Translations under genes and position numbers: made by a program
Notes under the pieces: generated by a model
Database searches by the model: none
What the model was told of the DNA's origin: nothing
What the model saw: only the letters and a program-made list of their open reading frames with translations
Part shown: piece by piece, positions 20,301-22,659 of the stretch
Position numbering within the stretch: the first letter of the stretch is position 1
How the letters are laid out: the number at the start of each line of letters is the position of its first letter
IMG/VR virus record: IMGVR_UViG_3300027320_000040
Span: 1 to 28,790 of that record
DNA from: a virus
Direction: 5' to 3' (one strand)
Length of the DNA: 28,790 nucleotides

Positions 20301-20998
20301 TTTTCTGCGTTGATGATGTTTGTAAACTCCGATAACCGCCGGAGGATCGGCTCGCCCCTGTCGGACGAGAGCATTTTTCTGATTTCACCCTTGACGGCAT
20401 TCGCCGTCCAGATGATGGGCAGTTCGTGGGAGGATCGGTGTTCCAGCAGGTCGAAGAGTTCTAGCTCCGACCGCTCGGTCATCTTCTGCTTACCGAGGTC
20501 ATCGAGGAGCAGCACTTTGGTGCGGCGGCAGCGGGCGAGCGTGTCCTCGGCCAGCGCCTTGGATTGGTTGTCATCATGCCACTGGTCGGCGCAGGCTTTA
20601 GCGAATGCCGTTGAGGTTATCCCGAAGACCCGCAGTCCGCTGAAATGCAGTCGCTTGAGCAGTATCCATGCCGCTCTGGTCTTACCGCAGCCCGCTGGGC
20701 CAATGAGGCCCATTCCAACTGGGTTATACTGCCATGCCTCGCATTCGCGCAGGAAGGCGCTTGGAATGCGTCCGATGTCGCTTTGGCGGTAGAGTGGTGG
20801 ACATAGGGCATGGAATGCCTCCTGCCGCCTCTCCTGCTCCGCTGCGGCCTGCTCCTCGCGGAGCTTCTCGGAGTGCCGAGCGAGGCAGTCCTCGCACAGC
20901 ACTCGGAGGTTCGGGAAGTAGCGCGACACGTTTTCATCTGGTAGCGGGACCGACTCGAAACATTCCTCGCTCGCACAGGGTTGGTAGGTGGTCACCAT
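20297..20998 (-). CDS. DnaC-like helicase loader ATPase with N-terminal zinc-binding motif
   Basis: 233 residues from ATG 20998 (ATGGTGA overlap with the upstream gene). The N-terminal part has Cys pairs C-A-S-E-E-C and C-E-D-C-L-A-R-H (about residues 8-13 and 34-41), likely zinc-binding. A charged helix follows. The AAA+ core has Walker A GLIGPAGCGKTRAAW, Walker B KVLLLDDLGKQ, sensor 1 LPIIWTANAVKGE and an arginine-containing IRKMLSSDRGEPILRRLSEF. It should load the host replicative helicase at the phage origin, working with the DUF1376-type initiator just upstream. No phage helicase is seen in the window, so the host helicase is the presumed partner. Confidence 0.85.
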   Translation of the reverse strand: MVTTYQPCASEECFESVPLPDENVSRYFPNLRVLCEDCLARHSEKLREEQAAAEQERRQEAFHALCPPLYRQSDIGRIPSAFLRECEAWQYNPVGMGLIGPAGCGKTRAAWILLKRLHFSGLRVFGITSTAFAKACADQWHDDNQSKALAEDTLARCRRTKVLLLDDLGKQKMTERSELELFDLLEHRSSHELPIIWTANAVKGEIRKMLSSDRGEPILRRLSEFTNIINAEK

Positions 20999-21675
20999 TG
21001 CTCGACCTCCTCGACTTTGGCTGGGGCCAATGCCGGTTCCACCTTGTTGAGCCATCCGATGACAAACATCCGGGTCTTCTTGCGTCCGGGGCGGGCGAGA
21101 AGCCATGCATCCATTTTGCGAGACTCGGCCTCGACATCGACATTCGGGTAGTGCCTCCGCATTTCAGCCCAGAACTCCTCATCGAGAAGATAGGATTTTT
21201 TCGGAGCGCCTACTTCTACTTTAGTAGAAGTATTAGAAGATGAAGATGAAGATGAAGAAGAAGGGGTTGGCTTTTGCTTAACCTCGGTGGATAAGCAAAC
21301 GCCAACCTTCGGGTTATCCTTCAAGGTTGGGTTGCCACCGAGGTGACCACACGCAGCCCGCTTATTACGAAGCTCTTCGTCCCGAATCATCCGGCGCGAA
21401 AAGATCACACCCTCCTCGTCGGTCTCGAAAACGCCAGCCTCGGCGAGTTCTGCCAGACACCCTTCCGTTTCCTGCAAGGTTAGCCCGCACATACGAGCAA
21501 GGTTGGGTGCAAGGATAACCTTATGGTTAACCTTGAGGTAACCATAGGGTGAACCTTCATGCATGAAGCAAAGGATATCCATCCAGAGTCCGCGAGCCGC
21601 CGCGCTACAGGACCGCAGCCCTGTGTCGCGCAGCCAGTCGCCGGGGTAGAATTGAAATGCTGGGCGCTTAGTCAT
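20992..21675 (-). CDS. DUF1376-type replication initiator-like protein
   Basis: 227 residues from ATG 21675 (ATGA with the methyltransferase stop). The N-terminus RPAFQFYPGDWLRDTGLRSC, SAAARGLWMDILCFMHE is the DUF1376-like winged-helix start found in phage replication proteins. Next comes a helix pair with LARMCGLTLQETEGCLAELA, GVFETDEEGVIFSRRMIRDE, then a serine run (SSSSSSSSSNTSTK at about 142-155) as a flexible hinge. The C-terminal domain (DEEFWAEMRRHYPNVDVEAE ... LNKVEP) resembles a DnaD/DnaT-like tail. The serine run comes from an AGA/GAT repeat in the DNA, prone to length change. Its role is inferred from the neighbouring helicase loader. Confidence 0.75.
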   Translation of the reverse strand: MTKRPAFQFYPGDWLRDTGLRSCSAAARGLWMDILCFMHEGSPYGYLKVNHKVILAPNLARMCGLTLQETEGCLAELAEAGVFETDEEGVIFSRRMIRDEELRNKRAACGHLGGNPTLKDNPKVGVCLSTEVKQKPTPSSSSSSSSSNTSTKVEVGAPKKSYLLDEEFWAEMRRHYPNVDVEAESRKMDAWLLARPGRKKTRMFVIGWLNKVEPALAPAKVEEVEQW

Positions 21676-22417
21676 TTCCCACCTCCAAGAATTCTCCATG
21701 CTGTTGCAGCCACAAGTGGAACTTGTCCGTTGCCAATGGCTTTAATGCGCTTTGACCTATCGGCCACATCATCCTCTCTTCTTGCCAAGAGGGGTTTAAT
21801 GTCACCCTCTCTGCCATTGAATTGGATGTTAGCCAACTCTTGCAAAGAAATCTTGCTACCCGATCCCCCTTGTATAATTTTGCGAGAGATGCCGGTTTTG
21901 ACCATGTGTCTCTGCATTCGGAGGCTACTGGGGTAGGCCAAAATCCATATCCTTTTTCTGTAGTGGTTTGCTCCAACATTATTCGCTCCAATAACTCCCC
22001 ACGATGCATCATACCCCATTTCGGCAAGGTCACCGATAACCACGGCAAGACCTCGCTCCACAAGCAACGGTGAGTTTTCCATGAATGCGTATCGAGGTCG
22101 TATTTCACCAATGATTCTAGCCATTTGTTTCCATAGACCACTTCTTTCCCCATCAATTCCTGCCCCCCCTCCTGCGCTTGATATGTCTTGGCAAGGGAAT
22201 CCTCCGCAGACAACATCGACTTTTCCTCTCCACGGAGTTCCGTCGAAGGTGCAAACATCGTCCCAGATTGGGAACTTTGGAAGGATTCCATCCCGCTGCC
22301 TTTGCAGCAGGACTTTCTGGCAATAAGGTTCAATCTCGACAGCACACACTGGGGTATGTCCGAGAAGGATGCCGCCGAGGATTCCTCCCCCTGCTCCAGC
22401 AAATAAGTGTAGCTCAT
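21668..22417 (-). CDS. W-P-T-P protein fully overlapping the methyltransferase gene
   Basis: 249 codons in a second frame of the same strand, offset by 4 nt from the methyltransferase start. Its ATG (22417) overlaps the TGA of the winged-helix gene as ATGA, so it has the better start of the two. The protein has segments I recall from a protein family commonly encoded with phage C5 methyltransferases: NKWLESLVKYDLDTHSWKTH, RCLWSEVLPWLSVTLPKWGM, YGFWPTP, and LNPSWQEERMMWPIGQSALK followed by K-F-H-L-W-L-Q-Q-H-G. Recall was not checked. The function is unknown; a partner or inhibitor of the methyltransferase is possible. Both frames appear to be real, making this a dual-coding region. Confidence 0.7.
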   Translation of the reverse strand: MSYTYLLEQGEESSAASFSDIPQCVLSRLNLIARKSCCKGSGMESFQSSQSGTMFAPSTELRGEEKSMLSAEDSLAKTYQAQEGGQELMGKEVVYGNKWLESLVKYDLDTHSWKTHRCLWSEVLPWLSVTLPKWGMMHRGELLERIMLEQTTTEKGYGFWPTPVASECRDTWSKPASLAKLYKGDRVARFLCKSWLTSNSMAERVTLNPSWQEERMMWPIGQSALKPLATDKFHLWLQQHGEFLEVGND

Positions 22418-22421
22418 TCAC
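21672..22421 (-). CDS. dcm: DNA cytosine-5 methyltransferase
   Basis: 249 residues from GTG 22421, the only start before motif I. C5-methyltransferase motifs in order: I LFAGAGGG (6-13); IV GGFPCQDIS with catalytic Cys77; VI MENSP (114-118); VIII HYRKRIWILA (153-162); a short target-recognition region (about 165-225); and X IGNGQVPLVAA (229-239). It transfers methyl to cytosine, probably to protect phage DNA from host restriction; no partner nuclease is present. Codon use differs from neighbours (more AGA, AGG, ATA, GGA), as expected where a second frame constrains it. Stop couples to the DUF1376 gene (ATGA). The gene symbol is generic. Confidence 0.9.
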   Translation of the reverse strand: MNELHLFAGAGGGILGGILLGHTPVCAVEIEPYCQKVLLQRQRDGILPKFPIWDDVCTFDGTPWRGKVDVVCGGFPCQDISSAGGGAGIDGERSGLWKQMARIIGEIRPRYAFMENSPLLVERGLAVVIGDLAEMGYDASWGVIGANNVGANHYRKRIWILAYPSSLRMQRHMVKTGISRKIIQGGSGSKISLQELANIQFNGREGDIKPLLARREDDVADRSKRIKAIGNGQVPLVAATAWRILGGGK

Positions 22422-22659
22422 ATGCCCCCCCTACCAGCGAATACTCCGCGACCCGCTTGCCCGTGGTTGTCTTAATCTTGCGCTCAGTGATCGGCCAACC
22501 CGCCTTGCGAAGCTCGCAGACGCGAGCCGCCAGCCGGAAGCAACCGAATAGGTTCAGCGCATCAATCGGCGTCACCCGGTGACCGCCGCGCAGGTAGCCC
22601 AGTATCGCGTTCGCCTGCGTAGGGCGGGAGTGACCGAATTCTAGTTCTGGCTGGGTCAT
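22414..22659 (-). CDS. Small winged-helix DNA-binding protein
   Basis: 81 residues: TQANAILGYLRGGHRVTPID, ALNLFGCFRLAARVCELRKA, GWPITERKIKTTTGKRVAEY. This is the pattern of the small HTH proteins of phages (L-x-x-L-x-x-G-x-x-I/V-T-x-x-x-A-x-x-x-F/Y-x-x-x-R-L-x-x-R-I/V-x-x-L-R-x-x-G, then a wing strand). It is probably a DNA-binding accessory in the replication operon. It overlaps the nuclease stop (ATGA), and its own TGA overlaps the ATG of the W-P-T-P gene. Confidence 0.78.
   Translation of the reverse strand: MTQPELEFGHSRPTQANAILGYLRGGHRVTPIDALNLFGCFRLAARVCELRKAGWPITERKIKTTTGKRVAEYSLVGGACE

Follow-up and report, generated by a model that had tools for sequence, protein, structure and literature searches.

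M.EcoHK31I and M.EaeI are C5-methyltransferases for YGGCCR that consist of two polypeptides. In M.EcoHK31I, a β subunit of ~176 aa lies inside an α subunit of ~309 aa, and Lee, Kam and Shaw are said to have reported in 1995 (NAR 23:103) that the coding sequence of the small subunit is nested in that of the large one, in another frame. Activity of the enzyme requires both polypeptides. The large subunit of this enzyme contains motifs I-VIII, motif X and the TRD, and the small one contains motif IX (PMC3404938). It has also been used as a "naturally split" methyltransferase (PMC3439449). M.AquI, likewise a C5 enzyme split over two polypeptides, is divided by chain order, with motifs I-VIII in one subunit and motifs IX-X in the other (PMC3404938). 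The other known "hidden frame" case is an HNH endonuclease hidden inside a methylase (PMC11855218).

The window analysed here comprises the 28,790 bases of an IMG/VR virus record. Its minus strand contains two ORFs of 249 aa each, α (22421..21672, GTG start) and β (22417..21668, ATG start), and β lies in the +1 frame of α. These coordinates bear out the sequence-only reading, in which two 249-codon frames of one strand overlapped by 746 nt. The starts are clustered at 22414..22421, with the α GTG at 22421-22419, the β ATG at 22417-22415 and the TGA of the upstream gene at 22416-22414. The proposed ATGA coupling of the β start was thus correct, as the β ATG overlaps the stop codon of a winged helix-turn-helix gene (PF14090 by Pfam, 22414..22659, minus strand). 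A Shine-Dalgarno-like sequence, AGGGGGGG, is located at 22432-22425 on the same strand, 3 nt before the α GTG and 7 nt before the β ATG, and may serve both starts. On the other side, the pair is flanked by a replisome-organizer-like gene (20992..21699, minus strand), and the surrounding replication/recombination module also holds a RecT-like protein, a DnaC-like loader, an SSB-like protein and a RusA-like protein. With the listed start of the downstream gene at 21699, the final 30 nt of α and β would be coding in three forward frames (21668-21699). The alternative ATG at 21675, which overlaps the α stop TGA (ATGA), is more likely to be its start.

All five motifs that had been read in frame 1 (FAGAGG, GGFPCQ, ENS, RKRIW and GNGQVP) are present in α. 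The catalytic cysteine lies in motif IV, GGFPCQ (22188..22205), which is invariant in 87 relatives. Motif VIII, RKRIWILA, occupies 21936..21959, and motif X, GNGQVP, which is conserved in relatives, occupies 21717..21734. The WPTP motif of β (21929..21940) lies on the DNA of α motif VIII, as had been noticed from the letters. PF00145 matched α with an E value of 1.1e-31, only over residues 3-174, and the match ended at profile position 169, whereas full-length canonical enzymes reach position ~322. The whole of α was covered by phrog_363 (6.2e-63). The AlphaFold model of α (pLDDT 80, pTM 0.76) could be superimposed on M.HhaI with a Z score of 22.9 over 217 residues, and residues 178-223 were unstructured in the model. 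With motifs I, IV (PCQ), VI (EN), VIII and X and an AdoMet methyltransferase fold, α has the features of a C5-cytosine DNA methyltransferase. Motifs I-VIII and X are conserved among the 87 relatives, and motif IX (RxLTxREaaRLmGFP) is absent from the consensus of these sequences. Full-length canonical enzymes from some of the same bacterial genomes do contain motif IX, of the RPLTPREAARLMGFP type. Because motif IX is missing from its chain, α by itself is predicted to be an incomplete C5 methyltransferase, like the large subunit of M.EcoHK31I. The odd codon choice in frame 1 was real, with a GC3 of 0.45 in α versus 0.59-0.74 in five neighbouring genes, and the GC content around the α/β region falls to 0.51. 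The low GC3 of α reflects the two-frame constraint within the window.

We searched for homologues of β in phages, plasmids and bacterial genomes. The tblastn matches came from phages of Pseudomonas, Acinetobacter, Salmonella, Vibrio, Stenotrophomonas, Microcystis, Bacteroides and Porphyromonas, and a more central β query added phages of Klebsiella, Paenibacillus and Mycobacterium as well as plasmids of Leptospira, Acinetobacter and Bacteroides. The β searches gave 198 matches at 195 loci, 197 of which overlap α in the same +1 register; the remaining match, on a truncated contig, has the same register. Since these loci had been collected with β queries, the search was repeated with the α profile only, with no reference to β, and β was present in 80 of 80 α genes. 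The β start is exactly 4 nt past the α start in most relatives, typically as ATGAATGAG. Ten distant Enterobacteriaceae pairs with larger α proteins showed the same +1 register, and E. coli prophage copies with a 306-aa α showed the same layout. Searches of viral contigs, phages, plasmids and bacterial genomes, and of 295 Enterobacteriaceae genomes, turned up no stand-alone β among the loci classified, which represent part of the database matches listed; the search for frame-2 homologues outside methyltransferase overlaps that the sequence-only reading had proposed thus returned none in any locus examined, an outcome which that reading had named among those that would speak against a partner gene. 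At one locus (L082:386-1569), α is interrupted between motif VIII and motif X by ~540 nt, which could represent an intron, a homing element or a long variable region. In Vibrio phage 1.091.O, the dual-coded pair is followed ~1 kb downstream by another C5-methyltransferase gene that is separate from it (L042:3652-4563).

Selection on the two frames was evaluated with synonymous shuffles that hold the α protein and the codon counts fixed. In 178 of 179 α genes, the open part of the +1 frame covers at least 80% of α, and the frame has 1.6 stops compared to a mean of 5.5 in the shuffles. For pairs at 38-71% α identity, with the α protein fixed, the β similarity exceeded that of the shuffles by z of 3.3 to 12.4. 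In 76 random pairs, the mean z was 5.9 in the +1 frame and 1.4-3.9 in the other four alternative frames. The column-wise conservation of β in 58 genes of at most ~70% identity reached an overall z of ~72, although these shuffle z values assume independent sequences and are therefore inflated by relatedness. The contrasts between blocks and between frames are sounder evidence than the absolute values. The strongest β blocks were residues 105-149 (z of 18-27) and 210-239 (z of 37-47), and the N-terminus with its start ATG and MSW/MSY was also conserved (z of 16). Residues 180-194 in the variable region had a z of only 1.8, which controls internally for shared ancestry. Synonymous variation in frame 1, which the earlier reading had put forward as a test, is accordingly not normal but clearly suppressed. 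This suppression, together with the universal co-occurrence in a single register and the conserved frame-2 residues, supports the dual coding that had been suspected for an overprinted partner gene.

None of the models in Pfam, NCBIfam and PADLOC matched β; the Pfam and NCBIfam scans of two relatives (L233 and L052), which had covered the α frame, are left out of this result. Its matches in PHROGs were phrog_1008, phrog_26627 and phrog_35493; the first is labelled DNA methyltransferase, apparently by association, and the other two carry no function. AlphaFold2 prediction of β alone from 94 sequences gave a pLDDT of 57 and a pTM of 0.24, a Foldseek search with this model gave no match, and comparison of the β profile with PDB sequences also found nothing. 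The first hundred residues were the least ordered part. A largely unstructured β, as predicted here for the isolated chain, fits a subunit that depends on its partner, without proving such dependence. The most constrained block of β (z of 47), LNPSWQEERMMWPIGQ at 21752..21799 on the minus strand, has the family consensus LNPxWxEWLMGWPxGW and resembles motif IX of M.HhaI, KLHPRECARVMGYPDSY; the window's own β has MMWPIGQ compared to LMGWPxGW in the family. The best local profile alignment of β to the canonical enzymes falls exactly on motif IX, with a weak P value of 0.077 that is not significant alone. The DNA of this block lies directly upstream of α motif X, which is the place of motif IX in a one-chain enzyme.

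Several other explanations of the second frame were considered. Long open alternative frames are common in GC-rich genes, and the second frame might be an untranslated shadow that is kept free of stops by composition and by the constraint on the methyltransferase protein. The failure to find a stand-alone β homologue would agree with such a shadow, but an obligate subunit pair explains this absence better than an artefact does. Moreover, the shuffles preserve both codon usage and the α protein and still reject the shadow, the start ATG and the MSW/MSY N-terminus are conserved, and the constraint differs sharply along the gene; a shadow frame can practically be set aside. Synonymous sites could also be constrained by an element within the methyltransferase gene that acts as RNA or DNA, with no second protein involved, and the excess seen in the other frames (mean z up to 3.9) is expected from any synonymous constraint. 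However, the excess peaks in the open +1 frame, covers almost all of the gene and is centred on Trp, Pro and Gly of that frame, and the start and stop codons of β are present throughout, which makes such an element very improbable. Two further candidates were ruled out: programmed frameshifting as the main route to β, as β has its own conserved start, and a hidden HNH-endonuclease insertion, as β spans all of α and contains no HNH.

The protein encoded by the second frame could instead be real and overprinted, yet have a separate role, such as inhibiting host restriction or regulating α, and be no subunit of the methyltransferase. The lack of any Pfam, NCBIfam or PADLOC model, the weak similarity to motif IX and the poor model of β leave room for this. 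Nevertheless, β never occurred without α, nor the α family without β, in the loci examined. Furthermore, constraint on β is highest in its motif IX-like block, whose DNA directly precedes that of motif X, and motif IX is precisely what α has lost. We therefore consider a separate role unlikely.

The explanation that we favour, with a probability of about 0.8, is a two-subunit C5-methyltransferase of the M.EcoHK31I kind, whose catalytic α and motif IX-carrying β are encoded by one stretch of DNA in two frames. Dual coding and its conservation, the α fold and the loss of motif IX from α are computational observations, and we infer beyond them that β is produced, binds α, supplies motif IX and is needed for activity. 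A single ribosome-binding region would serve the translation of both proteins, whose starts, separated by 4 nt, would be coupled to the upstream stop. The α chain in frame 0 would provide motifs I-VIII, which make up the domain for AdoMet binding and catalysis, as well as motif X, and β in the +1 frame would contribute the motif IX-like element and probably complete the small DNA-binding domain in trans, so that only the α-β complex would methylate. The phage probably uses the methyltransferase to shield its own DNA from host restriction; we consider this protective role probable because no restriction gene was recognised among the searched neighbours of the pair. As for the origin of β, a frameshift may have restricted the reading of the motif IX DNA to the +1 frame, and the upstream part of this frame would then have adapted. 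Such an origin is plausible given that the searches made found no β homologue elsewhere, that the N-terminal hundred residues are the least ordered and that the motif IX-like block is collinear with the canonical position.

Three relatives (L012, L014 and L025) are nearly identical to a fourth (L007) over the first 160 codons and then have unrelated variable regions. In the window, the variable region of both proteins is at 21786..21926 on the minus strand, is disordered in the α model and represents a putative target-recognition cassette. Its mean identity is 0.14 in α and 0.17 in β, compared to 0.71 and 0.41 in the respective cores. In the four relatives, recombination appears to exchange the cassette of both frames in a single event.

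A tract of 7 G, within both frames, is located at 22163..22169 on the minus strand, at α codon ~83. Many relatives (L007-L034, L070, L079, L109, L127 and L130) have 9-14 G at this place. Of 167 distinct genes, 24 have 9-14 G near codon 83, in most cases at one and the same position, compared to 2.9 in the synonymous shuffles, although part of this enrichment comes from one clade. Four of 239 distinct α genes are frame-broken (L010, L034, L093 and L174), and all of them break exactly at tracts of 9-11 G. With 9 G, α of L010 continues into the β frame; with 11 G, β of L034 continues into the α frame. These breaks fit slippage that would alter both subunits together, and the G-tract may be a phase-variation switch acting on both; homopolymer sequencing error is an alternative explanation of the breaks. 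More tentatively, and as a proposal that we would not yet prefer over its opposite, the pair may belong to a large and old obligate dual-coded family in which one poly-G slippage breaks or swaps the ends of both subunits and one cassette exchange changes both recognition segments.

Hundreds of loci share the arrangement, and they range from Pseudomonas, Acinetobacter and Leptospira to Akkermansia, phages of Bacteroides and mycobacteriophages. Annotation pipelines retain one of the two frames; at the β-match loci, nearly always one ORF was annotated, usually the methyltransferase, with phage Lily as an exception. In databases, many of the proteins listed as "orphan DNA cytosine methyltransferases" probably represent one half of an enzyme, and if this is true, α cloned alone would yield an inactive protein. 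We found no description of this dual-coded family in the open-access literature. To our knowledge, long same-strand overlaps with both products full-length and under selection are rare among well-supported bacterial and phage cases.

Comparison with the known systems showed both shared and distinct features. Like the large subunit of M.EcoHK31I, α has motifs I-VIII and X and lacks motif IX, and like the small subunit of that enzyme, β is encoded inside α in another frame. In contrast to M.EcoHK31I, to which the pair is likened by motif layout, β here is as long as α (249 and 249 codons, of which 746 nt are shared), its start lies 4 nt downstream of the α start, and no restriction gene was recognised among the searched neighbours. 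The pair also differs from M.AquI in that motif X stays in α and only the motif IX-like block is in β, on the same DNA. In Paenibacillus phage Lily (NC_028841), which was matched by the β query, gp62/gp63 are a C5-methyltransferase and an annotated "g62 internal gene" in the +1 frame; its β has 163 aa and starts ~60 codons inside α, as opposed to the 249-aa β of the window. The principle of an α without motif IX and a β with it is already known from M.EcoHK31I. As far as could be found, the apparently new features are a congruent overlap that is almost complete, with the two starts separated by 4 nt, the universal occurrence of this arrangement in a large family from phages and prophages, the selection measured on two frames, and the G-tract.
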